Origin: Dysidea avara
Lineage: Eukaryota; Porifera; Demospongiae; Dictyoceratida; Dysideidae
Direction: 5' to 3'
Assembly (NCBI RefSeq): GCF_963678975.1
Contig: NC_089278.1
Coordinates: 14,737,959-14,801,958 of the forward strand
Length of the DNA stretch: 64,000 bases
Shown: piece after piece, positions 1,706 through 23,929 of the stretch
Layout of the letters: each line of letters begins with the position of its first letter
Position numbering within the stretch: position 1 is the stretch's first letter
Notes under the pieces: generated by a model
The model's database searches: none
Seen by the model: only the letters and a program-made list of their open reading frames with translations
Told to the model about the DNA's origin: nothing
Translations under genes and position numbers: made by a program

Positions 1706-1757
1706 CTTGTTTGAGAAGAAAGAGAACAAAGATTGTGAAAGCACTGCAAACGCCCAT
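1706..1757 (-). CDS. First exon (signal peptide) of a receptor-cluster gene, partial
   Basis: The ATG at 1,757 opens a 52-nt exon encoding MGVCSAFTIFVLFLLKQ plus one extra base. It is followed directly by a GTGCGT splice donor, so the intron is phase 1. The peptide is a typical secretory signal (short polar start, then a hydrophobic run). The exon has the same length and phase as the first exon of the large Ig/FN3 receptor gene (MSSCRGFVVFVLLLIKQ at 18,419-18,470), and the two upstream regions share a conserved block. The remaining exons must lie left of base 1, so the domain content is unknown. By position and orientation it is the third member of a tandem minus-strand cluster. I infer an Ig/FN3-type receptor, but only the signal exon is actually seen. 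Confidence 0.6.
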
Positions 1758-1819
1758 CCTTCCAAGGGAGAGATCACGCGACGACGTTTCATGATACTAC
1801 CGCACACAGGTATATAGGA

Positions 1820-1870
1820 TTTATGATGCAATCGAGAAATGAAAACGAAAGTTGTTTACAGGAAACCACA
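1820..1870 (-). promoter_or_regulatory. Conserved upstream block of receptor genes (copy 1)
   Basis: About 50 bp, beginning 63 nt upstream of the ATG at 1,757, matches 18,591-18,640 upstream of the large receptor gene. The shared core on the plus strand is TTTATGATGCAATC followed by GTTTACAGGAA. The second part contains a forkhead-like TGTTTAC next to an Ets-like AGGAA. Conservation is seen directly; factor binding is inference. Confidence 0.5.
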
Positions 1871-3630
1871 AACTCCACAAAATATTTAATAAAGGATACG
1901 AATGAATAGAATTATCATAACTAGCTCCTGCATGCATGGGCAGCATGGCTAACATCATCTTTTTGTTATTTTGATGGTATGAAAGTGGTGACCTTTAGCT
2001 ATTCGAATGTCACCATGGTTTAATATTTCTGCTATACATTACCAAAACAGCCAAAGGTGCTTTAAACTTTGAATAGTTATAGCTACTGTGTATCCACTGT
2101 TGAAAACTCACTGATCAGTTGGACTAAAGCTAGATGGCACTATATAGAGATATATATCAGCAAGGGTTCTTTGGCTGCTAAAATTGCTAAACTACTAACC
2201 AAATTGTAGTTTGCAAACCCCAAACATAATCCAAACAATTTTGTACCAATCTCTATGGTTCCTGAGTTGCAAAGATTCTGGAGAAGTTTGTGACTCAGCA
2301 ATTAAGTTGAAATCCATCAACTTAGTTGTTATCAGTGTGCATGCTTATTTACTGAACATATTGCCAGACTCATGGTCTATTTTACTTGGGGGCTGGTATA
2401 CATGGCCAGTTCACTGGGTCTGTCACTGTTTTTAATTTGGTATACATGAATGATATGTCTTCTCAGGGTCAACATGATGATGATACCATATAAGACAGCA
2501 TGACTATTTTAAAGGCTTCCAGGTACCACCTCACACTCAGATGAAGTGGTTTTAGTTTGTGGAATTGATGCTTTTAGTTTGGTTTATTTTGTATGATGGC
2601 CATTGTGGACAACTTACTTTGCCTTGGGATTTGTGCTAAAGGTTATGCAAGAATGGAATACTGCATGAATCAGTGCTGGAAGGGCACAAGATCGGTAGTA
2701 ATAGAGCAATCGCCTAACTACTCTAATAGAACATTCAACAGAATTATAGAAGTTGGTCCTGTTAATTCAACATGTCCTCATTACACATTATCTATATGCA
2801 ATCAAGAGCATGAGTCTATCTGAAATGCCTTCACCATTTACTGATGTACCTATTTGTACAGTATCTTAATGATAGTCAGAGTATCCTATTCAAGTACACA
2901 TGTCCTGCAAAGTAGGAAATTAGGAACCACACTGACTTTGATTCAGACTACGGATAGTTTGTGGCTGGTGTCTCTTTACCTCACAATTATATGTAGTCTT
3001 GTTTCCAGGTAGCACAGTAAGTCCCAAGTTGCTGCATGACAGATTCATCATTCATCAGGTTTGCTGATAGAAATGATTTTCCACCATCAGTGATACATTG
3101 CTGCATACACTACTGATTTAATGTTTATCTCCAGTATGTCATCTATGGCTCAGTATTTTGTGTATGCACATAGTGTGTACACATCAATGTGACATTACCA
3201 CACCACTGATGTACTGACACTTAGCTACCAGTGGCCCCATATTGCCTTGATTTGGGATAACGTTCTGTTTGTGCTGGCCTTCACAAACACCATATTATGC
3301 ACACTTCTTGACTGAATCATCTTCAGAAACATCTCACACCTACAACATATATATACCACTATAGCTCTGTGTAACTGAGCTGCTTTTTATTTGTTTTAGT
3401 ATTGTGATTTTCTGATACCAGTTAAACACCCTTGCATGTGTATCATTTCCATGGCATACACACTGCTTTGAATACTGGCAGTGGCACTGTTTATACATGC
3501 CCTATGGGTAGGTTGTCATGTTGGTGTATGTAATTGGTTGTATGTGACCCGATTATAGGTATAAGTATAATACAAATACGTACTATACTCAACTGTACAA
3601 TTTACGATGCAGCAATACATTAGAGTACAG
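1871..3630. other. Intergenic, no gene recognised
   Basis: This lies between the 3' end of the large receptor gene (stop at 3,631) and the upstream block of the next cluster gene. It holds one pair of the dispersed ACTCTAATAGARCA motif at about 2,698-2,740. Otherwise there is no coding or structural signal I can support. Confidence 0.5.
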
Positions 3631-6600
3631 CTACCTATATTCACTATCTTCCATGTTACGTTCAGACGTAACATATGAAGGGTTGTCACTCATGTCCATT
3701 TTACTCATAGTACCATAGGCAGGATTAGGTATGATCGTGTCTTTTCCTATTCCATCAGTGGCAACATGTACTACACGCCTGCTATCATTCACATCTTCAT
3801 AAATTGCTTCATCACAATCATTGTTTTGTTTTGTGGTAACAGAATACCTCACTTGATCCACACTTTTCTTAGTGTTGTTAAAATCATATCTATCAACAGA
3901 TCATAGAGCAGTATATACATCATTGTGCAAGTACTCGATCCTTACCTAGCTTTCTTCCTCTGCATCATACAGAATACATTGACCAATGCAGATATCACAA
4001 ACCCAATGACAAACACAGCTAGTAGAGTGGCCACAGCAGTGACAGGACTGTTATCGCACTCACCATATTGAGGGAATCGATGTATTGTAACTGAAACACA
4101 AACAAACATTCACAGTACAGTAAGCTCTATGTGAACCTCACCATTGGTATGGAACTCAATAGCCATGCTGTTGGCATACTACATAAAGATTACATATAAC
4201 AGAGATACACAAATACTACAACACAGTAGTTACCAGTTCATCAGCAGTGTGTGCTCTCACCACTACAACATGTGTAGTGTTAGCTGTTAGTGGAACACTA
4301 ATGTAATCTACTCCTCCGTAACTTGACCTACTCCCATCCCCCAATTCATAAGAGTATGGATAACTGATAATATTACTGACTGCCACTATACCACTAATGT
4401 ACCCGTACGATTGTCCATTATCACTGGCTACATCTGCAACTTCTTCATTGTACTGGGAGCTCACATTATACAGTAATAAACCCATGTAGTCTCTTTGAAC
4501 AATTATAGTATAGTACCTGTGTGGCCAGTACAATGTACAACTGGCCTGTAGCTCACTGTACCTTACTGTATGTCTCCATTAATGTTTGATGTCTCATATA
4601 TTATCAAACTAGCAGTGGTGTCTGTGGTGTCAGTCACTTGTGGGGTGGGTGGATCCGGAGGAACTACATATTATAGACAGTCAACAAAATAATGATGGTA
4701 AACAGATATAAAGGTGATTACCATCAGGCAAGGTAGTTATTGATAACTCTGCTATGTCACCAGGTCCCACACTGGTATAGGCTACCACACTAAACTGATG
4801 TTGTGTGCCTGGGAATAGTTCAGTGAAGTCAATTGAGTAAGTGATATCATTGGTAGCAGTCACATCCATTATGTCATAGTCATCAAACAGTTCCATTGCT
4901 CCAGTAGACTGGTTCAGGTACGTCTTGCTAACATTATAAAATACCTATGTAGGGAAACAGAGGACAGTAATTAACAGTTTGATGGTCTGTGCAAAACACA
5001 AATGTCTTCTAATTCTTAGCTGTCATAAGCCCCCATAGTCTGGAAGGTTTGGTGGGATCAGACAAGTCACCCACTTTTAGTGGTCCACAATTCTGCACAT
5101 ATAGAGTAGTCAACTACTCTAATATAACAATCACTCTATCCAATGCACTACATATGTGACATAATTTTAAGAAGTGTTGAAATATCACAAAAGAGTATAA
5201 CTGTACCACATCAAACCCACAAAGTTCACCAGAGAAAGCCCAATAAAAATTTTGAAGGTATGGGCCTTGATTGCTTAGTTCTAGTTCCATTCTACTTACT
5301 GTATATTCAATGATGAATCCATTGGGAGGATCAGGTCTTTGCCATGTGACACCAATATCAAATTTGGTGACATTCAAACTGCTCAGGGCACGAGGAGCAC
5401 TTGGAACTACACAAGAACACACACAGAGTGGGGCATGCATTACAATAACCTATCACATCAACACAGACTATAGCTAGCATTACCTCCTTCAGCAGTAGTA
5501 CCAACTGTTGCTGTTGATCGATCACCAATCAATTCCACTCCATTAAATATCGCCACAGCTGATACTTGAATCATGTATGTTACTGATCCATTGAGGTTAG
5601 TTAGTGTACCAGGAGACTCATTAAAGTTTGCTGTAAATTCTCCATCTTCTACAAGTTGTCTCTTCCTTGTACCCTCCATAATGGGACCATAGGTATTATT
5701 AACTGGCAAATAGAAAACAATGTAATAACTGATGACTCCATTGGGTACATAGGGCTCCATCCAGCTAACAGCTAACATTGAAGATGACAATCTTGACTGT
5801 ACTGTGACGTTAGAAACAGGATCAGGAGCTGTGGAATTTTTACAGTATTAAAATTTGTAAAACTGCTTTACTGAACAGCTTACCTTGTGGAAGTGTGGTC
5901 ACATTTACAGAATCACTAAACGGTCCTCCTCCCAAATAAGTATATGCTCTTATGTTAAGAGTGTAGAAGGTGTTGGGAGATAAACTTTCAATAGCCACTA
6001 TCAATGTGTCACTGCTACTAACATTTTGTCCACTATATGATGTGTCATTAGCTTCCCTATATTGTAGTTCATATTGTGTTATCACACCATTGGGAGTACT
6101 GGGTACTGTCCATGATATCACCAAATATCTAGCACCGATATCATCAACTGTCAGCAACTGAGGAGCTGAACTGGGAACTGTAAGTAATTACATATATAAG
6201 TATACACCATGATTTGTGCAATAAAAAAATAATATGTATTCACAAGGTATAGTCAAACACTCTCACCATCTTGTCCTGATAATCCAAGCACAGGATCACT
6301 GAATGGTCCAGTTCCATTAATATTACTAGCAGCTACTTCTATTGAGTAGTTAACATAAGCCACTAATCCTGATATCAGTGATGACAAGTTGTCACCATTC
6401 ACTACACTCGTCACTTCTACTTCACCACTACCCACTCTACTGTATCTGATCATATATCCAGTGAGGTCACCATTAACATGTTCTACTAGTGGTCTACTGT
6501 ATCTCACTAATAACATTGCTGGATCAACACCAGTTAGGTTGATGTCTTGTGGGGGACCATCAGGAACTACATGTATATAGAACACATCATATTGTGCGGC

Positions 6601-8072
6601 ATGCAATAGTACATTTAAATTATTCTAACATACTAGGTATTAGTTTTGTGACTGCTTACAGTGGCAGATGAGCACCTGCTAGGCTTCAAAATGGATGAGG
6701 CCAAACATTGAACATGTTGTATGGAAAGGCAAAGCTGTAGTAAGGCACACACAGTGTTGGGAAAGTTACTTTTTAAAAGTAACTAGTTACATATTACATA
6801 TTACTTGCAACTGAACTATTTAGTTACAGTTACACATTACCCATAAAATAAAGTAACTATAATAATATTACATATTATATTACTTTGTGTCCACAGCCTT
6901 AAGCTGTCATGTGTGAAACTACCACCTTATCACGTGACATGATTGCATTGTTGGACAATGTGCAAATCTTGGTTATAAGTAAGGAGCTGGTGAATAAGCT
7001 TCATTCAGTAGGCTACATTACTTCGTTGTGGCTTGGCATTACTCAGTGGATTATTAATGAGATTAGTAACTTCATTACTCGTAGTAATAATATTACATAA
7101 TATTAGATTCGTTACAGTAACTATATTACTTAGGTAACGCGTTACATTTGTAAGTAAAGTAACTTGAGTTATATTACTTGTTTCTACAGCACATTTCGTT
7201 ATATTACTTAGATACCACAAAAGCAATATCATTACATAACACGTTACATAAGTAACATGTTACTCCCAACACTGGGCACACATGATTGAAATAAAATGTG
7301 ATTTCTCTATTAGGACCTTCACACAGCATCACGATATCATGTAGTACTAAAATTCTCTTAATTCAAGCTCAGTATCTTGGTTAACAAAGCAGCGGCCAAT
7401 GGTAGCTACACCAAGATCGCTGTACTTATCTTTATGCACAATTGCTTACCATCTGACCAAGTCATCACTCTTACTTGAACACTTAAAGGACCAGCCACTC
7501 CACCAAAATCAGCTTGTACTCTGATGTCATAACTCACAAACTCTTCCAGATCATTAATGGTGTGTACAGTTGTTGAAGATGTTGCAGTACCATCACTGGC
7601 AAACTCCTCCACTGCATCATAAGATAAAACGTAACCACTTATCAAGTCGGCATTAGCTGGGGGTGGATCCCATCTCACCACAACAATACGAGCTGATGTC
7701 ACCTCAACAACAACATTTATAGGAGCACCATCTGTAGGTGATTCATATCCAATAATCACATATTAAATTTCTTACATGTTTGTTGGGAGATTTCAGAAGA
7801 ATAGTTTCCATCCCCAACTCTGGTAGATGCCCTCACTCTCAACTGATACTCAGTGTCAACATCTAATCCACTTACAGTGTACATTAGTGTAGTAGCAGAT
7901 AATGTTACACTAGTGTATGATGAGTCAACAGATCTCCTGTACTCCATCATGTATTGTGTGATGATACCATTGGCTGGATCAGGTGACATCCATGATAAAC
8001 TAACTGCACTATCATTAACACCATCTACTGTCAATGATCTTGGTACACTTGGTACTATAATGGTATATATAT

Positions 8073-8115
<43 letters not shown>

Positions 8116-11100
8116 TATACAATTAGGCAGTTATCACACAGTACACTATACTGTATAGTAGAGACCATGAAAGTTTGGGTTGAGTCCTACCAAAAAATTT
8201 CCCAAAAACTAGCTTTTTTGTTTATATGACTGAGTTTTCTGCTGACTGACCGACCAACTGACTGACTGAATGACCGACTGACTGACTGACTGACTGACTG
8301 ACTGACTGACTGACCAACAGACCAACCAACTGACTGACTGATGTCTTCAGATCAGCATTACTCAATAACAGCTACAGCTATGGGCTTGATTTTGTCACTA
8401 GTAAACACAACAGGTGCCTTTTGGCATTCCGCTGTATGTGTCCTCCTTTGTGTCCCATTTCCTTTCACTGATGTACATTTTCCATTAGTGATTTGATTGA
8501 TTGCACAGGCACTTTTATTCTTCTTTTGAAATGCTGTGCAACATGCCAAAAACACTTTTCAGTAATTGATGCATGTAGAACAACATTTTTTAATGCAGTA
8601 TGTGTGGGTTTAATTATATTGCAAAAAAGCAAATAAACTAGAACAAGGAATATTAGGTATCGTAGAAACAAAAAGTATCAATATAAAGCAGAGGAGGATG
8701 CCTACACCTGCAGATATATACTATTGGACATTTAATCCATATACTACTTTAGCATGTATTGATGACTGAAGCAGATTGGTATATCTACAGGTGTAGGCAA
8801 CCTCCCTTGCTCCACTACTTTGTATTTCTACGTTCCCTAAAATTCTTAAATTTTGTTTACTTCTATATACTATTTTGCAAAATAACAAATACTTTCATGC
8901 CTATATTAGTACAACCAAATACACTGAATGTAATAATGATTCATAATCAAATCCTTACCATCTTGTCCTGATAATCCAAACACAGGATCACTGAATGGTC
9001 CAGTTCCATTAATATTATTAGCAGCTACTTCTATTGAGTAGTTAACATAAGCCACTAATCCTGATATCAGTGATGACAAGTTGTCACCATTCACTACACT
9101 CATCACTTCTACTTCACCACTACCCACTCTACTGTATCTGATCATATATCCAGTGAGGTCACCATTAACATGTTCTACTAGTGGTCTACTGTATCTCACT
9201 GATAACATTGCTGGATCAACACCAGTTAGGTTGATGTCTTGTGGGGGACCATCAGGAACTGAAAACAACAAGCATGTAACAGTTAAGCCTACAGCTTAAA
9301 CTATAAGGTTGTCATGTTGGTTGTCGTACAAGAAAATTCACATAAAAATCAACCAATGAACAATGAAAGGCAAGCAGACACTGGTATCTTATTAGCAATT
9401 GTGATATCATCTCACAAATGAAAGAAACTGTAACCAACTTGAGATTGACTGTATGCAGAAGAAAATTGCCTTATTATAATTAACCAAGACAGTTGTAATT
9501 TTTCAATACAGAGAAATCGATATACTTACATATAACGTACACTTTATAATTCTGACAACTCATGACTTACCAGATGATAAGGTCATTATTGATACTACTT
9601 GACTAGGGGCTCCCAATGTTTCACCAAACATAGCTTGTATTGTTATACGATAAGTGGAAAACTCTTCTGGTAGGTCTATTGTAGCACTTCTCATTGTCAC
9701 TGTCACATTTCCATCATTCACAAAAGTCTCCACACCATCATAATACACAATATAACTAGTGACCATGTCAGCATCAACTGGTGGTGGATCCCATGTTACC
9801 ATTACTCTACTAGGTGACTGTTGTATCATCACCATCACATTTGTAGGTGTTGTACCCTCTGAAATAGTATAAGAAGTAGTTAGTAAAGACTGATAAGTGA
9901 TGGTGTATTGTAAAGGTATATAGTTACCGTATAACAACAAAATTAATATTGGCGAAACTAATATTTGGCGATTTGCTATAAAATTGCAGTTGGCGAAACT
10001 TTAATTTGGCAAAATGCTCTTACTGAAAAATTGGAGGTGCACGTGAGTGGTATAAGGACAAAGTGTGCATGTTGTAGTGTATGATCCTTTTGTGCTGAAA
10101 TGTTATGGATTCAATCACTGCATGCACCAGTCTGGTCTAGTTGCTTTTATGACTGAACCGGGTCTGGATCTTTAAAGAACATCTGGATCCTGCAAATTTT
10201 TTGTGGGACACACCCACTTATCAGGATTGTTTGGCATACGTAGAGCCTCACCCATTTATCAATGTCTGCACATGAATTCATGTCTGTTGCTATCTGTAAG
10301 CTTACGTGGAGCCACGCCCACTAATCAAGTATGAGGTCTAGTCTAGTCCGTAAGCCACACCCATTTGCATGCTAGAACCGTGCTAACTTACCAATAAGGT
10401 GTGTCAACTAAATAAGGTGTGTCTACGAAGTCATACTTGGTTTGTGAAACCTGTTTCAACAACTGCCATCAAAAGCTTGGACTATGCTAGGACATAAGGT
10501 ATGAAAATAATATTTGACGAAATCTAAATTTGGTGGTTTAGTGACAAATCACTAATTCGCCAAATTTAGTTCACCATCAAATTTATTTGATATACGGTAT
10601 ATGATCCTCTGGTCTATTCAATAGTGCATAAAACTATTAATTTAAAATGATTCGAGTGATAAAAGTAGTGAAACAAGAGATGATAGTAGTTATGAGGGAA
10701 AATCCCAACTTGCCATTGTAGCAATGTGAGAAATCCCTAAATTGGCATGTTTTCACCACCTTTTCAATGCCAAAGTAGAGATTTTACCACATTGTCACAG
10801 GATTTTCCTTCATAACCCATTGTTGCTTGTTTCACTACTTTTTATCGCTGGAACCCTATTTTTTTTAAAAAGTAATAATTTTATTGCACTAGTTATCAAG
10901 TTTTTTTGTTTAGTATAATTATAAAATATACATGTGGCTGTATTAGAGTATCTCGATCTCGCTGCAGCAGATTAAACTAGGGGGTGTGGTACAGTACCCT
11001 GTTTGATACGGAGCTAGAGGCATGGCCTTAGTACTGATTATTAGAGGTATGGTGGTATATTCTGATTGTTTAAGAGGTGTGGTTCATTGCAATCATTTAT

Positions 11101-14100
11101 AAACCCAGCTTAGCTTCTACCCAATATTGCAAGATATACCACATCACCTCAAATAATTTCATAGTGTCTAACATGATGTTCCCCTTTGAGGACAGTGTCA
11201 ATATGGAAAATTAATGCCTTGGTATGGTTTCCTGATATGAAGAAAACAACCATTTAATGAAAGATAAAAGTAATAGCAAAGTGCAGGAAACAGACATTTG
11301 CCAGAACCACAAAAGATATATCCCACTCATGAGTTTGCTATTGGTTGTGGTGTAAAACGGTGGCTATGTGCTGCTTCATTGCCTGAGACTGTGATCAGGC
11401 AGTACCAAAATATGGTTTTTTTAAGACCATTCTGTAAAAGTGATTTTTGTCATCTAAGATATTTCTAAGATGGCTTTTAGACACTGCATTTTTAGCATCA
11501 TTTTAGGGAGAACCCTACTAAATAGCTTTACCGTACTGTTTGATTGGATAAAACCAATGGCTGCATTAGAATCATAACCAATTGCAAGCACCAGTGGTCT
11601 AGCACAAGCAAAGCATAATCATGGCATTGCTTTACCACATATGGATGTTAACCATACTAGCCTGGGTTGCTAGTTTTCTGACCTCTTTTGTTGTCAGTAT
11701 ACAAAATTTTAGCTTCTATTAAACACATGCATATTGCAGAGGTTATGGCATGACCAGGAGCTCATCGAATCCTATAGTGTGTAACTCCATACACTACCAA
11801 TACTACTGGCAAAATTCAAACATGGCGTCCAGTGTTACTATGTATATAATTGATTACATCATTCTTACACTGACACAACAGGGATTTACACTGAATGGGC
11901 TGCTACTCCATCATCTTATGTGAAGGTAGCAAAGCTGGAAGATTGTAGAGTCGAAGGTAAAGCTTGGAATGGTCAAGCAGAGTAATTTTGTGTGATTAGT
12001 GCAACTGTAGAAAGTCTGTAGAAAGCCTGAACTTCATTCCATAGCTTTACTTCATTGTAGCAGAAATGTGACATGCTTGAGTATGCGCATCCGCATAATA
12101 TCCTAATTTGAAATATTTTTTAAGTAGTACATGGCAGCCATGTTTGAATTTCGCTGTTTACAGAGTTACATGCTCCCTCGTCCATAGAGTTTGATGCACT
12201 CCTGGAGTGACTTTGTATGGTTCACTGAATACTCAGGTGTTCAAATAGAAGCTGAAAAGTCTGTACAACATTGCCTTTTTCAATCAGTCAAGGTGTTTGT
12301 GGCTCTAATTTCTTGAGATAACTAATGCATTATCCATTAACTTGTATGACAAATACTGTCACTCAAAATTACCCTCCATTAGCTGGGAGCAGATGAAAAC
12401 TATCATGCTGAGCAAAACAATGGGGATAGAGCTGGTATTTACAACCTGCATGGTGCCGATATACAGTATTTTATCCATCATTGTTAGGAATTTAATTCTA
12501 TAGCATTGTAAGTGATAAGACAATATACCTGTTTCTTGAGTAACTAAATCAGTAAATGGTCCATCCCCAACACTGGTAGATGCCCTCACTCTGAACTGAT
12601 ACTCAGTGTCAACATCTAATCCGCTTACAGTGTACATTAGTGTAGTAGCAGATAATGTTACACTAGTGTATGATGAGTCAACAGATCTCCTGTACTCCAT
12701 CATGTATTGTGTGATGATACCATTGGATGGATTAGGCGACATCCATGATAAACTAACTGTACTATCATTAACACCATCTACTGTCAGTGATCTTGGTACA
12801 GTCGGTACTATAAAACAATAAAGTCAACTAAATATTTTACAACAGAGTAAAACAACATACTATCTTGTCCAGATAGTGATGTTAATGAACTACTGAATGG
12901 TCCAGTTCCATCACTGTTTACAGCAGCCACTTGTACTGTATATTGCACATATGTAGTTAGTCCAGTTAGAGTATATGAGGTGGAGCTGGTGGATACAGTT
13001 GATGTGCTTCTTCCAACTTGTCCATAACGTATCTGATAACCTGTCAGTGGTCCATTGTGGTCAATCTCTGGTGGCTGCTGCCATGTTACTCTGAGAGATG
13101 ATGGGTCAACAGCCATAACTGTAACACTCTGTGGTGGTGAACTAGGTGCTATGGAAATATCAATATACAAAATAATACACTGATAATACTTACCAGCTGT
13201 AAGTGTTGTAGCCATTGCATCACCAACTGCAGTAGTATATACATCACTGTTTCCTATAGCTCTGACTGAAAATCTATACCCAGTGTTCTCTTCTAAGTCA
13301 GTGAAGTCCACACTGGATTGACTACCACCACTGACCTCTAAATATCCGACATAGTCAAATGATAGCAAATAACTGAGTATACGATAGCGAATGGCACCAA
13401 ATGTGGATGGTGTCCAAGTAACTCGAATGCTACGAGACCCCAATGTTGTTGCTCCAACATTAGAAGGTAACGTTGGACCTATAATGACACAAGTCATGTA
13501 CTGTATATGATTGTGACCTGATTTGAAACCCAACCACTTTTGGCACAAAAACAAATTTTAAAACAATAAGGGGTAAAATGGAGGTAACTTCGTCACTGGG
13601 GTAACTTCATGAATTCCAACTTAGTTGGGCTGTAGCTCCTAAACTGTTTAATGAAATTATTTGGAAATTTCTAGCTACTCTGTGGTTTTACAACAACATG
13701 ATTTGATTGAAGTAGCATAGCACGACTTTGCTTGAAAAACTTCAGTTCCATACCAAAACTTTGTTATAGCTGAATCTCTAGCCATTTCTTCAAGTGCAAC
13801 ACTTGTAATCTTAGTTCTCATAATCAACAATCAACAATTGCATAAATAAGCCCTCCTCGAGTACAATTGAATGATTGCACATTGAAATTGTCTTGAAACC
13901 ACCTGAGGAAAATGTTTTGCAGCCAAATTAAGGAGTTGTCTGCTTCTCTAGCATGTTTTCTAACAAGCCATTTAGGTAAGTAAGACTGTTTTCTTGCAGA
14001 TTGATGGTCTTGCTGGGTTGCTGTCAGAAATTCATGATGTTGTCCCATATGTGATTTTTTAACACTGCCAGATATTTTTATTTATTTATTTATTTATTAT

Positions 14101-17100
14101 TGATACTTTGCAGACCTCCACTAGGGAGTATAAAGCACAGATACACACAAGAGAACATACATAAGCACAAAGTATACAACGTTTTAGCCTATAGCTGGGT
14201 TAATACAAAAATAGTCTACAATTCTTTTCTTAAAGTCATCTATATTGCTTGCTTCAATTGCAGTAGCTGGGAGGCTGTTCCATATTTTAATAGTGGCAGG
14301 AAAAAATGAGTGAGAATAAACGTTTAAGTGAGCTGACACCTGTCTGAATCTTTCCCTCTTGTACATGTAGTTATTGACATAGGAAGGTGGTGGCTGGGAA
14401 TGGAAATTTCATTATGCAAAATTTTAAATAGCATGATAACCTGCGAGATTTCTCACCTACATTCCAAAGATGTCTATCCAAGTGAGTTCAACATCCCTGT
14501 GACGCTAGACGTAAAGCCATAATCACCGGTCACAGATCTTGCAGCTCTACGCTGCACTGATTCAACTAAATTAATGTTTGTATTCGTAAACGGTGACCAC
14601 ACAACACTAGAATATTCCACATCAGTTTGTGCCATATAAAATCTGTGGCTATGTCAAATCACTCACAATTTGGCATGCACAGACTACATAAACACATGTT
14701 ACCTGTAGCCAAGTTTAGTTGCAATCAGTTTTGTTGATGGTGGTAAGTTATGAACACGAACACAAAATATTCACAGAGATACCTCCATAGCCTACTACTA
14801 GTATAACGACATTACTTGCCCAACAATTTCACACTAGATTTATCACTCTGTTTCTGAAACAATCATCCTATTTGTGTAAAATCCTATAATTCTTCTACAG
14901 TATTGATAAGACTGGAGTCAATGCTATGGGATTATCCTTCTTTGCAAACCTGTAGTATGTACTCTTATACTATTAGAGAGAATGCAGTTTGATCTGAGAC
15001 TACCCCAGTCCATTTTAAAACCAGCTAGTCTGTGCCCAGCTCCTACCCTCTACTCCAATGTGAGCACATATGACAGTATTTATCGGCGAATGTACACTGT
15101 ACCCAAAACATAGGTTTTACAATATCAGGTGGCAATTGCTTAACAAGTTAAAACACTACAGACACTTAAAGTTTGGTCATTCCCCAGTTCCCATTTTCCT
15201 AGAATTTTATTTACCCCACTACTCACACACTACTTCATTTCATCATTGTATTATATAACAGGTTTGAAGTCAGTGCATGCTCATATGACACATGACCATG
15301 ATAGAATGCATTATACACACAACATGGTGTATACCTACCTACTTGAAGTGTTATACTTGCACTATCACTACCAAGCAGGTTAGATACAGTACAAGTCCAT
15401 GTTCCAGTATGGTAGCTTTGTGCACTGCTGATAGTATATGTGCTACGATATACTGCACTGGAAGAAGTGTAAGTCTCAGCAGTTGTAGTGCCACTACCAT
15501 ACGTAGACCCATCTTGTCCCCAAGTGAATGAGTCAGGGACAGAACCTCGTGATCTACAAGTTAGTGACACTGAAACACCAGCATCAGTATTAATGTGAGA
15601 TGGTGATGGAGTGTCTATTGTTGGAGATGCTAAGAAATAAGCAGGCAGGTTGAAACCTGTGAATCAACAATAAACTAAACTCACTTCTTGAACTTGCATA
15701 GACATTTAGTGTTAGAGTCTGTGTATTAACAGAGCCACCTGCAACAGTCATACACTCATAAACACCTTCCTCAGAAGTTGTAAATGAGCTGCCACATCGA
15801 TAGAGGTCATTAGATCCAATATAACCTTCACTAACACTGGAGCCACGTGTCTCTACTGGGGCACCAGATGAACAACTTTGATCAACAGGTAGTTGGGAGC
15901 CATCACGAAACCATCCACCAAGAAATGAATTAATACCAGCAGTACCAGGAGGTTCTCCAGTGACACAGCGAGCAATTACACCAGGTGAGCCTGGCTCGAT
16001 TACATATCCATTGTTTGGAATAACATTTGCAGAATTAAGTGCATTACTACCTCCAATCAGTGCAGTTCCTAGAGAATGAAGCAATAAAGTTAATGATGCA
16101 CAAATTTGAAATCAAATTCTTACCAGATATGGTGATTGTAATTGAACTGCTTGTTACAGTTATGGTTTGAAAAAAGTTAACAGTAAACCTTGCTCTACAT
16201 CTCAGACTATCAATAGCATCCTCTGCTCTAAGATTAGTACCAGTGACTCTCCGTGATGCCTGACCATGTGGGAAACAAGCAGGATTTCCACCATTATAAT
16301 CACTAGTCTGGAAACATTCATCAGTTATCCAGCTATACGAAACTGAACCAGATGGACTTGGTGACACCACACATGTAAGAGTAAGACTGCTAAACAGTGG
16401 GTATGTTGACAAAGATGGGTTTCTCTCAATATAGGCCGTATACTGAGCATCAGTGTCTAAAAATACATAACCTACTTTAAAACTTAGCTATACATGTATA
16501 GTGTACGTATAGTATAACAAAAAATGAAAAATTTGAAATTTTATAAGTTAGTAAGATCACAATCTGAAGTACTAATTGCTTTATCCATAGTGCATGTAAT
16601 AGCATTAGCTCCATCACTATAACTAGAATCTTGTAAAACAACTAGATAGCACAAACTATACACTACAACTCATACAGGCATACTATTAGGATACATCATA
16701 CAGTATGTTGTTACACCACACAAGTTTTATAATTACCATAGAAACCTATAATGTACCTGCTAGCTATAATAGGCAACAATAAAGCCACTGATACCTGTGA
16801 ATGAATACCTTGCACTGTGAAGTGGAGGACAAAGGTATGTCCATGATGTGTGCATTGTGCCTACTGCAGGAGACACATGTCAGGTGAAAAAAGCAAGACC
16901 ATATATAGTATTTGAGTTACATTATTATGAAGGCATCAGACAGTCTGTTAGTCAGTCATTAGAAACCTTAAAAATTTTGTAGTAACTTATTGGAACACAT
17001 TTTGGGTTACATTGAAAGTACATTTGATACTACTGTACTGTATGATGATCTAACTCTATGGTCACACAGAACTAAGTCAGTTAACCAGCTTTAACCCATA

Positions 17101-18470
17101 TATGTATTAAATACTAAGTTGCATTTGATATAGTATTGAGACACATAGTAATGTGCTAAAATAGGTGGCATGCCACACCATCCAGTTAACAACTTTCATT
17201 CATCCATGCTCAAATGGGACACGTGCGAACACCTTCCAGTTTTGGTAACCTACATTCCAAATTTGCTCTAAAATACAAGTCCTCAAAGTAATGCACCTTC
17301 TCATTTCACAGACTTACGAAATCACAATAAAACATATAAGACGCACTTAATAGAGGTTTAAGGGAAAATTGCAGCATCAACTTTCATTGAAAAACATATG
17401 CAGAGTTTTGAATAATTACTGATGCAAAATAGAGGTTGGTTTGATAACCAGTAAATAGGAATAACTGTGAAATTGCTCACTTTTTGATAATTTAAAGATA
17501 ATCTGCAGGGGCAGCTCCAGAGGGATTTCTGATGTTTCCAGAAACCGGTCAAGTGTATTTAAGCAGCTAAAAGTATATTTAGCATTGATTTTGCAAAGGC
17601 ATAAGACGTTCAAATCGAGATACTCTAATAAAGCAGTCAATCACTCTAATAAAGCAGTCACAGTGAGAACTGAGAAGTAGAGTAGCAAGGTATAGCTATA
17701 AATAAGGATTTTATGTACTTTATCAGTTTATTATAGTTAGTGGAGGGCAGTTATTCTCAGCAGGCAGTTCAGTACCTCTTTTTTTCTTTCTTTTTTTTTT
17801 TTTTGGTCCGAGTTCACCAAAAGTCTATAGCTATATGCTCCTGATCAGAAACCAGTCACCAATATCCTGGAGCCACCTATGATCTGACCTCGACTGTGGT
17901 ATAGGCTCTAACAGAACAGTCAACAAATCAAGTAAGTGCTATAGTCATCAGTAGGGGAATTCTAAGGGCTCCAATGGAACAGCCGTCAGCCATCCTAATA
18001 GAAGAGTCTTCTCGTAGAATCAGTTCGCATTTGCCCAGACCAATTTTGGATGCCAAAAATATTCGGCCTTGGTCAACCAAAATCGGTCCGGCCGGACCGA
18101 TTTCACCCGGACCTCCGTGACAGGACACACACAGCCACGAATAGGGTAATTTTATAACTATCCTTTTAAGGACGTACGGATCATGGATAAAACGCGATCA
18201 AACATACAGTGTAGTGTGTGATAAGAAAGCTGTTGTGATCGTGTTTTATCGATGATCCGGACCGGTCCTACAATGTTCCCACCATGAAGCCATAGCCTCC
18301 TTTTCCATTAATCAACCACTCCCTCTAATGACGTACGTTATCTTGAGCACGCAATCAACACATACGTAGCTACATGGTGTGTAATAGTTATTCAGGACAG
18401 GTAAGCTACTTCTTTTACCTTGCTTGATAAGCAACAGAACGAAGACGACAAAACCTCTGCAACTGCTCAT
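3631..18470 (-). CDS. Large single-pass receptor: signal peptide, 3 Ig, 11 FN3, membrane helix, tyrosine-rich tail
   Basis: I built 21 exons, all phase-compatible, giving 1,707 residues: 18419-18470 (signal peptide); 16124-16456, 15685-16068 and 15339-15629 (Ig-like, with paired Cys and WTCTV/YECM patterns); 13194-13478, 12861-13148, 12529-12807, 9571-9858, 8959-9258, 7776-8054, 7450-7731, 6267-6566, 5884-6177, 5484-5828 and 5300-5406+4722-4944 (FN3); 4567-4663+4234-4516 (juxtamembrane domain resembling that of receptor tyrosine phosphatases); 4142-4178; 3946-4090 (membrane helix, about residues 1597-1621, then RKK); 3631-3862 (tail). FN3 hallmarks are the early Trp (SWMSP, VTWDPP) and the late Tyr with VRA. 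Almost every domain exon is phase 1-1. The tail carries YEDV, NPAY (1677-1680), NPSY (1691-1694) and a final EYR. NPxY motifs in other receptors recruit PTB adaptors; binding here is inferred. No kinase or phosphatase domain is present. The ligand is unknown. Exon choice is strong from frame; an extra Ig exon in the 2-kb first intron is possible. Confidence 0.85.
6744..7282. mobile_element. hAT-type non-autonomous DNA transposon with 8-bp target duplication
   Basis: The element at 6,752-7,274 starts CAGTGTTGGGAAAGTTAC and ends with the inverse GTTACTCCCAACACTG. It is flanked on both sides by the identical 8-mer GGCACACA (6,744-6,751 and 7,275-7,282). An 8-bp duplication and CAGTGTTGGG ends are typical of hAT-derived MITEs. 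The inside is AT-rich, full of TTAC/GTAA units, and has no transposase. It sits in an FN3-FN3 intron of the large receptor gene. Confidence 0.9.
8060..8115. repeat. (TA)n(TG)n microsatellite
   Basis: Alternating TATATA followed by TGTGTG lies just upstream (in minus-strand terms) of the FN3-6 exon, in an intron. Confidence 0.9.
8135..8575 (+). repeat. Fragment of the GACT-rich composite repeat family
   Basis: It begins with ACTGTATAGTAGAGACCAT, has a (GACT)n tract at about 8,240-8,340, then GATGTCTTCAGATCAGC and GGGCTTGATTTTGTCAC. These landmarks recur in the same order at 53,404-54,100 and, inverted, at 20,410-21,079. It is a diverged, shorter copy in an intron of the large receptor gene. 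Confidence 0.7.
8693..8806. mobile_element. Short foldback element (copy 1)
   Basis: The left arm GATGCCTACACCTGCAGATA is answered by the inverted right arm TATCTACAGGTGTAGGCAAC. A second copy with the same arms is at 42,309-42,412. It is about 110 bp, non-coding, and looks like a small inverted-repeat MITE. Confidence 0.65.
9925..10599. mobile_element. TA-flanked inverted-repeat element, 671 bp
   Basis: The element at 9,927-10,597 has ends CCGTATAACAACAAAATTAA and, inverted, CCGTATATCAAATAAATTTG. Both arms continue with TTTGGCGAA-type repeats. It is flanked by TA on both sides, as for Tc1/mariner-type or similar MITEs. No transposase is visible. It lies in the intron between FN3-3 and FN3-4 of the large receptor gene. 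Confidence 0.75.
10600..12520. other. Intron sequence without recognised genes
   Basis: This is the remainder of the long intron between FN3-4 and FN3-3. It contains one minus-oriented copy of the dispersed motif (ATTAGAGTATCTCGATC, about 10,943-10,962) and otherwise only scattered low-complexity sequence. No exon-like frame with splice signals was found. Confidence 0.5.
14078..14640 (-). mobile_element. 5'-truncated LINE, C-terminal end plus (TAAA)n tail
   Basis: On the minus strand, 14,366-14,184 encodes YSHSFFPATIKIWNSLPATA followed by IEASNIDDFKKRI. This is the stereotyped C-terminus of many LINE reverse-transcriptase proteins. Downstream on the same strand, at 14,100-14,079, is a (TAAA)n tract as expected for a 3' tail. 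Sequence up to about 14,640 continues the same open-frame remnants. It is inserted in the intron between the Ig-like and FN3 exons of the large receptor gene. Confidence 0.75.
16800..16985 (-). repeat. Diverged fragment of the GACT-rich composite repeat
   Basis: GAAGGCATCAGACAGTCTGT followed by TAGTCAGTCATTAG resembles the minus-oriented copy at 20,800-20,880. It lies in the first intron of the large receptor gene. Confidence 0.45.
16990..18415. other. First intron of the large receptor gene
   Basis: No Ig- or FN3-like exon with splice sites could be found here. A tandem pair of the dispersed motif is clear at 17,617-17,660 (GAGATACTCTAATAAAGCAG, then a second copy). The stretch 18,040-18,120 contains short inverted pieces around CCGGCCGGACCGA. 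Confidence 0.5.
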
Positions 18471-18530
18471 TCTTTTCCGGTCAACAAGTCACGTGGCTAC
18501 AATGTAGCACGTAGCATTGTTCCGGATACT

Positions 18531-18581
18531 TTGGCGCAGCCGCCCCTTCGATTCTAATCGAAGGGGCGGCCGCACCAGAGG
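18531..18581. repeat. GC-rich near-perfect palindrome in a promoter region
   Basis: The arms 18,539-18,553 (GCCGCCCCTTCGATT) and 18,556-18,570 are perfect inverses with a 2-bp spacer. They extend outward imperfectly for about 8 more bases. The palindrome lies about 70-110 bp upstream of the receptor ATG at 18,470 and interrupts the spacing seen at the paralogous gene. It could be a tiny foldback element or a regulatory hairpin. Confidence 0.75.
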
Positions 18582-18590
18582 GACATGAGT

Positions 18591-18640
18591 TTTATGATGC
18601 AATCAATTGCAAAACGAAAACTGTTTACAGGAAGTCACAA
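18591..18640 (-). promoter_or_regulatory. Conserved upstream block of receptor genes (copy 2)
   Basis: This matches 1,820-1,870: TTTATGATGCAATCAA, then ACGAAAACTGTTTACAGGAA. It lies 121 nt upstream of the ATG, against 63 nt in the other gene; the palindrome accounts for most of the difference. A GTCACGTG E-box lies nearby at 18,488-18,495. A shared promoter or 5' UTR element is inferred from conservation between paralogues. Confidence 0.5.
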
Positions 18641-18959
18641 GATGTGCATCATCTACGAATTTTTCAACGAACGAGATGATCATAACCAAACCAGTGGGCA
18701 TATTAGGTAGCTAGCTATTTTTTTATCCATCAACGTCAGATAAAATAGCTCTCAGTCACATGCAATATAAACTGAAGAATACAACTATTATTTTTTTCCT
18801 AGGCTAGATGGACTGCCCTTGCCTACCACCCACAGCACTGGCTGTCAAGTACTGGACAGCTGGAGGGTACCATCAGCTGAAGGATACATCTACAAGTTAA
18901 CTAGCTAGACCAAGTTAAGTTACTGCAGGCAAAGATTATTCTTGAATTACAAACAATTG

Positions 18960-21727
18960 TTAATTTTCATATTCATAAATGTCATCGTTCACTTTGCTTT
19001 CATGGCTCATGTAGAATTCAGGGTTACTGTATGCAGTGGTGACCTTTATGCTATCACCATATGATGGGTTAGGTACAATAGCAACACCATCTGCACTCTC
19101 ATAAATTGGGTCTGATGACCACTTCACTGCTGCTAGGTTTCCATCATATACCACCTTAGCTTGATCACCACTTGACCTATAAGTGATAACCAAATAAATA
19201 GCAACTTTATTAATTCTTACCTCATCTTTTTCCATTGGAAAGCAAAGTAGATATTGATAGAAAAAGAGATGACAAATCCGATGATGAACAAAATAAGCAC
19301 CATTGACAGGCCAACAGCAATGACTGCATCGTAACAACTTCTTGCGCCAGATTGTGTACCCCCGCTTGTTTCAGCAGTCAATGCCACTAGGAGAGGACAA
19401 CACACCTTAAGTGAGTTATACAACACACTACAAGTTGCCCATGCATATAGCTATTAACTATAACATTTTATTGAGAACAAGCATGTAGTTTGATATTAGA
19501 CAGAAGGGATCACTAGCTTCCTTTTAGTTACAATCTCTAACAATCATATGTCAATTTCTGAATTAAGCCATGGATGTTGAAATTCAAAGTGATTATGATT
19601 TTTGGTGCTGGTCAGGGAGTAGCTAAGCAGTGTGTACATTGAGTAGTTTGATGCAGCTGACATTTTATGTGTCTTAATCTTTGAAGATTTAGCAGGATTT
19701 GCTATAAGAGGGTCAGTACATTGTGCAACTGTACAGCTTTACAAATATCATGGCCTGTATACACGTGATAATGTATGGCTGTACACAAGCTGTGTGAGAT
19801 GAGTCAAATACCTTTTGATCTGTGGGGATAATGAGTAACAGTTGAGCAGCACAAGCGTTACCAAACTGGACAGCATATACATCTATACAGTCATGCATAT
19901 ACTATATAAAATTCTAATCCAACATCTATACCAGCTTCATAATCTTTTTTGTACACTTAACAGCCATTTTGCACTCATCATTAAATATTTATTTAAACAA
20001 AATGCTGTGACCTGATTGGTAATGCAATTGTGGTTGCAACACAAACATTGCTAATATCATCTGCATGCCTGAATGGTATAAAAGGGTTGACAGTGTATAC
20101 AAGAGAATACATAGCTAATGCCAATAAAGCAGTGTTGCCAAGTACCTAAGGTACAAGTAGCAAAAAAAATAGGAATTTTCAACTAGAGTAGGGACCATAA
20201 AAGATAACAAAAAGTACTGAAAAAAGTTGGAGTAGTGCATGATGTTAAATGCAATAAGAAATGTTATATCCCTACTGTGCATTTCCATTATGGTATTGTT
20301 TACTGTGATTTAATATCGTGCACTACTCCAACTTGTTTCAGTACTTTTTATTGATATGCTATAGTCCCTATTCTAGTTGAAAATTCCAATTTTTTTTTGT
20401 GTACTTGTCTGTTAATCTTTTTGTAAAAAAAAATTATTGTGACTGGTGAACCCACGCATACCGCATCAAAGGAAAGAATGGCGCCACACGCCACAACTAT
20501 CAATTATTGTCTGAAAAGTGAAGTATCCATTACACTTCATTGTTAACAAATCCATTATACAGCATTGTGAAACAAGAACTGTTCGAAAAGCACCTCTGCA
20601 ATCAAAGTAGCCACTATGAAAAATACAGACGATTTCCATTACGAAAGGAAGTCATCATGCACTACCGCCAAATTAACACCTTTTGCTGTTAGCAAAGATG
20701 AATGGAACACAAAGGAGGACACTGGTAAGTCCATGAAGAATACATTGTAAGTACTGCGGTATGCCAAAAGGTACATGTCCGGCTGAAGTGACATCAAACA
20801 GTGAAAAAATCAAGCCCGTAGCCTTGGCCATTATCAAGTTATGCTTGTCTTAAGGCATCAGTCAGTCAGTCAGCCACTAGAAAATTCAGTTTAATAAAAA
20901 AATTCATAGCAAGCAACTTGTTGAAAGCATTTCCGTCGATCTGAAGGCTTGTTTGGGCTTAGTTTTACCTATAAACAATACTGGCATTGTTGTCAGGGAA
21001 AATTGAGGCTGATTTTTGGGTGATGTTTTTTCATGGACCACGCCCAAACCTTAGTGGTCTCTACTATCATACTGTAAAACTAATAGTTGTCCACTAGCTA
21101 CCTCAGTACGTGCCACTGATTTCGCTGCCTGAAATGGTATATAGGAGGGGCAGTCCATCTAGACTGCTTGTTTTTTTTGTTTGCTTTGTTTTTACTGTGA
21201 AAACTTCACAAACAGAAGAATATACACAGATATAATATAATAAATAATGTTAGCTATTGATTGCAAAATAATAGTTACGTAGCAGAGATTTGAATATGTC
21301 AGTGTTTTCCGCTTCAAAGATGTAGCGAGGTAGTACGTCCAATGAAACTGAACAATACAGAGTATCTCTTTCAGGATATAACTAGCCTTTGTGACTTTTC
21401 AACTGTAGTAGTATGCCACTTAAGTTTGTTTTTTTTTTGTTCCACAACTGATTTGCACTGGCGGTTGCCACACTCACACTACTGTGTACGAGATCGTGGT
21501 ATCGTGCATCATTATCATCAATCGTTTCCTTGCACAACCTTACAACCGAAGGAAAGATTCTTTTATCCCTCAATGCTGAATGATCAATACGCTAACTACG
21601 CCCTCCGGCCTCGTCTCAGTGACGCACAAACAGACCCAAATACATACGTACCTTGTGCTGAGAAAATATGTATAAGTGCGAATATCATCAGAAGATTACT
21701 ATTCAAGTTTCTGTTTGTGTATCCCAT
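18960..21727 (-). CDS. Short tyrosine-tailed membrane protein, 'headless' paralogue of the large receptor
   Basis: Three phase-matched exons give 152 residues: 21652-21727 (signal peptide MGYTNRNLNSNLLMIFALIH..SAQ, donor GTACGT, phase 1); 19221-19386 (about 20 extracellular residues with one Cys at 43, then a membrane helix at about 46-70 and WKK); 18960-19176 (tail). The helix exon aligns with that of the large receptor (both have IGFVIS, then N and a basic stop) and has the same start and end phases. The tail shares DG..I.PNP(A/S)YG with it and holds seven tyrosines (91, 106, 120, 130, 136, 148, 150), including NPSY at 117-120 and YSNP at 130-133. No Ig or FN3 exon is visible in the 2.3-kb first intron, which holds a composite repeat. 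It may be an adaptor-like signalling chain or a decayed receptor. Linking exon 1 to the rest rests on phase and position only. Confidence 0.65.
20149..21079 (-). mobile_element. Composite repeat with terminal foldback (copy in minus orientation)
   Basis: The 20,149-20,407 part is a foldback: AGGAATTTTCAACTAG and its inverse flank long arms containing GTTATATCCCTACTGTGC. Next comes a region with ACGCATACCGCATCAAAGGA, then GGCATCAGTCAGTCAGTCAG, ending at GGTCTCTACTATCATACTG. The same order of landmarks, inverted, is found at 53,404-54,391. No open frame is convincing. It lies in the first intron of the short receptor gene. Class unknown. Confidence 0.75.
21190..21560 (-). mobile_element. Possible LINE C-terminal relic
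   Basis: On the minus strand, the frame after 21,380 reads RDTLYCSVSLDVLPRYIFEA then ENTDIFKSLLRNYYFAIN. This resembles the end of LINE proteins (NSLP....EA.N...FK..L). A run of T on the plus strand (21,171-21,178) could be a tail. Weak, by-eye match. Confidence 0.35.
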
Positions 21728-23290: not shown

Positions 23291-23929
23291 CTGCAGACAC
23301 TCAATTGATTGTTAAGGCTTACAACCTACACTTGTAACACCATGCAGTCATTTTACAAGCAACCAAATATTAACAACAAGCAATCTACTTTCTCCAATGG
23401 TCACTTCAGAGGCTATTTGCACCTTTATATATACATGTATTATGGTGTGTATATGTGCAAGCTCCTTGTGGTACTACAATTGCACAGTACAGCTGAATTT
23501 TATGCCAGGACTGGGAGAGTGAATGTCTCTGGTGTACTATGATTTCAACATATAACAATTAGTACAATGAAACAGTAACTCATTAGAAATACTACATGTG
23601 TGTATAGTGTAGCTACATCTGCAAATCAACAACTAATCCTCTCATACAAATTTAATGCCTGCAAATAGCTAGCTACAGTGCAGTGTGTATGTTGCATGTA
23701 TCCAAGTATATAATACAGGCAAAGTACAATGAAAAGGACATTTTTGTGTGTCCCACTTGGTTGATATATATATAGTAGAATATTTCTCTACTGAACAATC
23801 TTCTGCTGATCTTGTTTTCTTATGAGAATTATGTAGAAAGAACCTCAAGGCCGCTCTTCATTTTTGTATGGCCAAGTCTTGAAGGGATTCACTATTTCTT
23901 CCTAGGAGGCCAGCTATACTGTTTTGCAG

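Follow-up and report, generated by a model that had tools for sequence, protein, structure and literature searches.

According to part of the published account of SIGLEC11/SIGLEC16 (PMC5701461), two tails there retain a common ectodomain, and the ectodomain exons are homogenised by patchy gene conversion. In the Hydractinia allorecognition complex, again as parts of the sources describe it, there are 41 IgSF members of the Alr type (PMC11999971, PMC12065747), and Alr candidates bear motifs of the immunoreceptor tyrosine-based activation or inhibitory kind (ITAM or ITIM; PMC12065747). Here we describe three genes, A, B and C, of the sponge Dysidea avara, which are arranged in tandem, head to tail, along the minus strand in the right-to-left order A, B, C. 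They were found in a 64,000-nucleotide stretch of contig C7 (C7:14737959-14801958, in a genome of 550.8 Mb and 108 contigs), which we call the window and beyond whose left end most of gene C lies. Our preferred reading, to which we give a probability of roughly 0.55, is that all three encode single-pass surface receptors of one animal family and that B and C are homogenised sisters resembling vertebrate paired receptors. As in SIGLEC11/SIGLEC16 and the CEACAM and CD300 pairs, so far as partial sources describe them, B and C are neighbours with apparently patchy conversion of ectodomain exons and with tails that are not homogenised. Unlike those pairs, they have the same tyrosine motifs in both tails and an ectodomain that combines Ig with FN3 domains; the likeness is one of description, not of sequence comparison.

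All three genes are models read from sequence alone. Gene B (18470-3631, minus strand) has 21 exons encoding 1716 residues, with three Ig-like domains, 11 FN3 domains, a membrane-proximal domain, a helix and a tail; all 20 of its introns are GT..AG, and the 13 exons from E2 to E14 are phase 1-1. Pfam finds 11 FN3 stretches in the protein (whole-protein E-value 1.7e-129) and one I-set. Each of E5 to E14 carries one FN3, and the eleventh is split across E15 and E16 (6.5e-10 alone). E4 passes the curated Ig threshold (I-set 1.4e-10, 41.5 bits versus a cut-off of 23.7); E2 and E3 themselves fall short of it. The exons of gene B, all on the minus strand and numbered within the window, are as follows.

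18419-18470, minus: E1, predicted signal peptide, ending in phase 1
16124-16456, minus: E2, Ig-like domain 1; no Pfam match at 0.01, although a homologue on contig C5 matches Ig_2 at 2.2e-7
15685-16068, minus: E3, Ig-like domain 2, of a four-cysteine type; the genome has 150 or more exons that match it, those of B and C included
15339-15629, minus: E4, Ig domain 3, Pfam I-set
12861-13478, minus: E5 and E6 (13478-13194 and 13148-12861), FN3 1 and 2
12529-12807, minus: E7, FN3 3; nucleotides 1-248 near-identical to E10, the final 31 not
9571-9858, minus: E8, FN3 4; 43% amino-acid identity with its partner E11
8959-9258, minus: E9, FN3 5; differs from E12 at 4 of 300 nucleotides, none of them synonymous
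7776-8054, minus: E10, FN3 6, partner of E7
7450-7731, minus: E11, FN3 7, partner of E8
6267-6566, minus: E12, FN3 8, partner of E9
4722-6177, minus: E13 to E16 (6177-5884, 5828-5484, and 5406-5300 plus 4944-4722), FN3 9 to 11, the last one split
4142-4663, minus: E17 to E19 (4663-4567, 4516-4234 and 4178-4142), membrane-proximal domain; homologues of the main exon on C5 and C9
3946-4090, minus: E20, GECD and the helix IGFVISALVNV, phases 1 and 2
3631-3889, minus: E21, tail (EAIYEDV, DTIIPNPAYGTMS, NPSYV, EYR) and stop

The Ig receptors and adhesion molecules of the sponge Geodia carry Ig-like domains at the cell surface. B resembles these, and the sponge aggregation factors partly described in PMC5450542, by description: in its Ig-like domains and its sponge cell-surface setting. 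A difference from the Geodia Ig receptors is that a Pfam scan of B and A finds no kinase domain. With the R3 receptor tyrosine phosphatases, as part of PMC5336234 and the Pfam entry PF18861 (PTP_tm) present them, B has an FN3 array in common and shows a weak membrane-proximal match; unlike them, it has no phosphatase domain in a Pfam scan of the whole protein. Pfam does not recognise the membrane-proximal domain (E17-E19) in B, and a PDB sequence search with this domain gave no match. PTP_tm matches two of four sequences of the membrane-proximal family (best E-value 0.01, B's own not among the two), a weak resemblance to the membrane-proximal region of receptor phosphatases.

The exons of B locate a complete second gene to the left of the window, in the same order and on the same strand. 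We read this gene, C, from C7:14680001-14740000 using B's exon edges: its open frame runs for 5094 nucleotides to a single terminal stop, and all of B's 21 exons are present and intact. A first-pass annotation of the window had proposed that the third gene be read left of base 1, and it proves to have B's layout. B and C are thus neighbouring paralogues with 21 shared exons, and over the whole proteins 1555 of 1697 aligned residues (91.6%) are identical. A tblastn search with B's exons at an E-value of 0.001 finds no further member in the 34 kb that lie beyond gene C on the left. Three features of this pair lie in the window.

1706-1757, minus: gene C exon 1, ending in phase 1 and predicted to encode a signal peptide; C's remaining 20 exons are outside the window, to its left, at C7:14732467-14714208
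18570-18640, minus: box in the 5′ flank of gene B, homologous to C's box, 78% identical over 74 aligned columns; none of 200 shuffles reached the score
1800-1871, minus: box in the 5′ flank of gene C, counterpart of B's box

The similarity of B and C is distributed very unevenly. Synonymous divergence (dS) is 0.72 in E1 (11 sites), 0.19 in Ig1-2, 0.03 in Ig3, 0.073 in the FN3 exons, 0.093 in the membrane-proximal domain, 0.31 in E20 and 0.85 in E21, so that the ectodomains are alike (0.03-0.19) while the tail exon is not. Nucleotide differences per exon range from 0 of 37 (E19) to 41 of 206 (E21), with a chi-squared of 214.6 versus a maximum of 43.5 in 1000 shuffles. The 1.5-kb 5′ flanks align across 71 nucleotides only, intron 1 across 78 of 1962, and intron 20 and the 1-kb 3′ flanks do not align; introns 2, 5, 6 and 9 to 18 align at 76.5-100% where aligned, some in part only. 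Because synonymous divergence is so uneven and the flanks and end introns barely align, the core of the pair is, by these measures, far younger than the gene ends: the 5′ ends, along with the first introns, helices and tails, go back to an earlier divergence. Among the accounts of this young core, patchy gene conversion has the best support. Upstream of B's ATG there is also a palindrome-like box (window 18529-18580), a 52-nucleotide match to itself in reverse at 85%. Intron 4 is 1860 nucleotides long in B versus 214 in C, and of two minus-strand pieces that by eye resemble reverse-transcriptase elements (14653-14187 and 899-582), the first sits in intron 4 of B.

The same 21 exons and the 92% identity could also mean that a single gene is present in two haplotypes, which the assembly has placed end to end as B and C. 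We rejected this explanation, which we consider very improbable, on the divergent ends (dS 0.7-0.85), flanks and introns just described; B and C also lie on one 39-Mb contig.

Signs of conversion are seen within each gene as well. Among the FN3 exons, best matches recur with a period of three (E6/E9/E12, E7/E10/E13 and E8/E11), and because of this period the stalk probably grew by the copying of three-exon units. Some of these partners are far more alike: within both genes, identity is 96-99% for E9/E12 and for most of E7/E10. E9 and E12 differ at 4 of 300 nucleotides in B and at 7 in C, with 3 to 10 differences across genes; the four exons lie within 1.0-3.4% of one another, and genome-wide they stand alone at 98-100%, the next best match being at 76%. 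In their first 248 nucleotides E7 and E10 show 10 (B) and 8 (C) differences, followed by an abrupt change, and 12 of the 13 sites that separate E7 from E10 in both genes fall in the last 31 nucleotides. For the intervening pair, E8/E11, 111 of 279 aligned nucleotides differ in B (39.8%) and 108 in C (38.7%); compared between genes, E8 and E11 have 14 and 12 differences. In B, the near-identity of E9/E12 stops at the exon plus its AG and GT and that of E7/E10 begins 6 nucleotides before the exon, and the introns flanking both pairs give no alignment in either gene. Near-identity bounded by the exon, next to unrelated introns, requires conversion, and the pattern argues for exon-bounded gene conversion inside both genes. 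The break near nucleotide 248, because it is shared by both genes, suggests that the E7/E10 conversion predates the last exchange between B and C. The two pairs offer a clean natural case of conversion halting at exon edges.

These data also bear on a plainer explanation, that B and C are ordinary adhesion receptors, tandem Ig-FN3 duplicates with no recognition or pairing role, and that relaxed ends account for their uneven divergence. Adhesion receptors can also have FN3 stalks and NPxY-type tails, and the overall ratio of nonsynonymous to synonymous divergence (dN/dS) between B and C is 0.39. Relaxation, however, does not explain why synonymous divergence is itself uneven, from 0.03 to 0.85 by group, nor does it supply the conversion that exon-bounded near-identity requires. 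We regard this explanation as possible rather than probable.

The third gene, A (21727-18960, minus), consists of three exons for 152 residues: a predicted leader, about 20 outer residues, a helix and a tyrosine tail.

21652-21727, minus: gene A exon 1, ATG, predicted signal peptide, phase 1 end
19221-19386, minus: gene A exon 2, outer stub of about 20 amino acids with SCYD, helix IGFVISFSINI, phases 1 and 2
18960-19176, minus: gene A exon 3, tyrosine tail (IYES, VPNPSYG, NPEFY, DIYEYEN) and stop

What ties A to the other two is found at its ends. The signal exons of A (21727-21652), B (18470-18419) and C (1757-1706) each start with ATG and end in phase 1, with a GT donor next; their leaders were judged hydrophobic by eye, and the signal peptide is a prediction. 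The helix exons of A (19386-19221) and B (4090-3946) both follow phase 1, end in phase 2 and contain IGFVIS, and the tail motif is PNPSYG in A and PNPAYG in B. When the helix and tail of B are compared with the whole window, only those of A also match strongly (2.2e-6, as against 0.32 for the match ranked next; composition correction off), and a pairwise BLASTP of the two gives an E-value of 7e-11. The first-pass annotation had proposed the three signal exons and tandem paralogues that share signal, helix and tail modules; the signal exons are confirmed in the sequence, the shared modules exceed chance, and the proposal is borne out.

No ectodomain exon is recognisable in gene A. We considered that such exons might be concealed in its introns and rejected the idea after a search with B's exons, whose best match in A's span, helix and tail aside, has an E-value of 0.028; to the right of gene A the same exons give no match below 0.08. 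The 5′ region of A resembles neither B's nor C's, the scores being reached by 41 and 198 of 200 shuffles. Adaptors of the DAP12/CD3-zeta type have a tiny outer part, a cysteine at the membrane and a tyrosine tail. Gene A is like them in all three respects and, judged by eye, unlike them in having neither an ITAM nor a mid-helix charged residue. Upstream of A on the opposite strand, an Ig-like query from C5 matches weakly at window 23358-23507, plus (E-value 0.001, composition correction off).

The tails of B and C differ mostly outside their tyrosine motifs. In the blocks EAIYEDV, DTIIPNPAYGTMS and NPSYV, 16 of 25 codons are identical, 9 silently changed and none replaced, and in the rest of the tail 12 are identical, 3 silently changed and 31 replaced. 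Nine silent changes without a replacement point to constraint on the blocks and rule out misalignment as the source of the tail's high dS. Portions of the blocks recur in A, on C5 and on C1, and the helix pattern IS..[IV]N[IV] is present in 7 of 11 family rows. NPxY occurs in all 13 compared tails (A, B, C and ten loci) and in at least two copies in 11 of the 13, a partly circular count since the query carried NPxY. We take I-P-N-P-A-Y to match the PTB consensus and Y-G-T-M the PI3-kinase SH2 consensus, both as predicted fits.

In our preferred reading, the signal peptide, membrane topology, ligand binding, phosphorylation and the partner role of A are all predicted. The B/C ectodomain would bind a ligand on a surface or in the matrix, or its own counterpart on an adjacent cell, through an Ig tip on an FN3 stalk. 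Helix contacts (the conserved IS..[VI]N) and the membrane-near cysteine may aid dimerisation, and a tyrosine kinase would phosphorylate the tail and so recruit adaptors with PTB and SH2 domains. B and C might then read one ligand into differently controlled or wired outputs, like vertebrate paired receptors, with the product of gene A acting as an ectodomain-less signalling partner or a regulator of dimerisation. If B and C do pair, one ectodomain on receptors with different tails is not a vertebrate-only arrangement.

Several points weigh against this reading. Both tails retain EAIYEDV, DTIIPNPAYGTMS and NPSYV, and therefore nothing points to opposite signals. The consensus for an ITAM or ITIM is a YxxL/I pair or [SIVL]xYxx[IVL], and by eye neither is present in strict form in the tails of A, B or C. 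The blocks were picked after their conservation had been seen, which means that the absence of replacements and the Fisher p of 3.9e-7 for blocks versus the rest of the tail are overstated; the nine silent changes in 25 codons stand. The core exons are themselves uneven, with single-exon dS from 0 (E19) to 0.17-0.19 (E5, E15), and introns 3, 4, 7, 8 and 19, inside the young part, cannot be aligned between B and C, so this was not one clean event. The longest identical coding tract, 172 nucleotides, is weak evidence, being equalled in 34 of 2000 shuffles. The position of A in the family is uncertain, given its long tree branch, and for all three genes the joining of exons, the proteins and any ligand binding are predicted from the genome sequence. 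With the same motifs in both tails and opposite signalling at most a possibility, we do not claim that B and C belong to the paired receptors.

Relatives of these genes occur elsewhere in the genome. The helix and tail of B give 17 matches at E-values up to 10, four of which are B's and C's own exons, and the relatives are on C5 and C1; with those of A, only A itself and two weak places on C5 are found. A tail from C5 gives 37 matches at E-values up to 1, counted as 34 loci (20 on C1, 11 on C5, two on C7 and one on C4), with 19 below 0.01. A tree of nine helix-tail rows groups B with C (support 97/97) and sets C1 apart from A, B, C and C5 (100/99); the branch to A is long. At C5:4.77 Mb, helix and tail are preceded by homologues of Ig1, Ig2 and Ig3 together with a further pair of Ig-like exons, and B-type FN3 was not found at an E-value of 0.01; at C5:5.474 Mb, homologues of E9, E13, E14 and E15 stand ahead of a tail, and the helix exon was not located. 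We infer that the exons at each of these two places form one gene. Similar helix-tail or tail modules thus go with no ectodomain (A), Ig-like domains only (C5:4.77 Mb), FN3 (C5:5.474 Mb) or both Ig and FN3 (B and C). Pattern-based scans of viral and prokaryote collections yielded no relatives.

Three other places on C5 deserve mention. At C5:5210329-5210718 a single tail has four tandem NPAYGTT repeats, and at C5:5224000-5232600 long open frames that by eye resemble a retroelement adjoin a receptor with an NPxY tail. Of the 14 matches to the membrane-proximal exon in the genome, eleven are on C5, two on C7 and one on C9; the weakest has an E-value of 0.3 and contains stops. Behind one homologue, at C5:5712601-5716000, come a helix-like exon rich in glycine and frames of Ig-like type, all judged by eye; because no NPxY tail was found within the 3.4 kb read there, the membrane-proximal domain may also serve other receptors.

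The most numerous relatives are those of Ig-like domain 2 (Ig2-type, E3). Of 189 candidate exons 150 were scored, all at 9.2e-7 or better and B's and C's included, so the count is a lower bound of at least 150, of exons and not of genes. All but one of the 150 (149) are free of stops; 81 of them lie on C5, 18 on C3 and 16 on C7, and 117 fall in clusters of at least three with neighbours within 250 kb. In twenty fetched copies and B's own, RC..GLGP and EGVYxC are largely shared, and four cysteines are invariant in an 11-row alignment. Pfam gives nothing below 0.08 for any of the 11 Ig2-type sequences tested. An Ig2 profile has nine PDB matches (E-values 0.14-0.74), a list of eight Ig-type proteins and one phage tail protein that no more than suggests an Ig-type protein; a fold prediction from the single E3 sequence was meaningless (mean predicted local distance difference test score 32.9). 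This family, below Pfam detection in those tested, would escape surveys that count domains, and it offers testable candidates for recognition genes in a group of animals where the receptors for recognition are not yet settled. Published titles and abstract openings, to the extent searched, name neither A, B or C nor a sponge expansion of this domain.

Such numbers raise the question of a diversifying allorecognition or non-self family, in which signalling ends are constant and ectodomains are diversified by selection and exchange. The clustering of 117 of the 150 Ig2-type exons, the near-identical recent copies on C3 and C5 and the similar tails on different ectodomains fit such a family, and to that extent the constant ends and variable ectodomain expected by the first-pass annotation hold genome-wide. 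They fail for B and C, which share one ectodomain of the same 21 exons and whose ends have diverged. Nor is diversifying selection, also expected, seen between these two: dN/dS is 0.30 in Ig1-2, 0.33 in FN3 and below 1 in every grouped region, and only one single exon, E6, has dN above dS, on 8 changes. The Ig1-2 value, which gives no sign of positive selection on the recognition domain, is a whole-domain average for one gene pair. The fetched Ig2 exons form 32 within-cluster pairs: synonymous changes are absent from 8, dN/dS is below 1 in 20, and it exceeds 1 in only 4 (1.35-1.64), all of which include the same copy, L054 (9-11 versus 2 changes). We think a diversifying family rather unlikely. 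Like the Hydractinia Alr family, as partly described, the genes presented here belong to an early-branching animal and encode Ig receptors that are clustered and carry tyrosine motifs; unlike Alr, they show NPxY-type blocks and an 11-FN3 stalk, a comparison by description and not by sequence.

Our preferred reading of A, B and C could be widened, although in this form we hold it only tentatively and consider it doubtful. An early-branching animal would then possess a large clustered receptor family built on a Pfam-invisible four-cysteine Ig-type domain, some members having NPxY-type tails, and exon-bounded conversion would maintain pairs in which two tails share one ectodomain, accompanied by a partner gene that lacks an ectodomain. 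If that were true, paired-receptor logic would exist outside vertebrates and sponge self/non-self recognition would have a concrete candidate family.

Two adjoining units at C3:36810001-36815000, each a tandem repeat of about 3.2 kb with Ig1-Ig2-Ig3 cassette exons, share 96.8% identity; the 5 kb read revealed neither a helix nor a tail exon. Is this a multi-cassette ectodomain, a set of alternative cassettes, or a row of small genes? Elsewhere in the window, positions 27358-28188, plus, encode a membrane protein that matches Pfam Rost (rolling stone) at 4.6e-13, and 47271-49720, minus, contains collagen-repeat frames (PF01391, E-value 3e-9 for 47274-48020), with long Gly-X-Y repeats visible by eye at 48788-49720.

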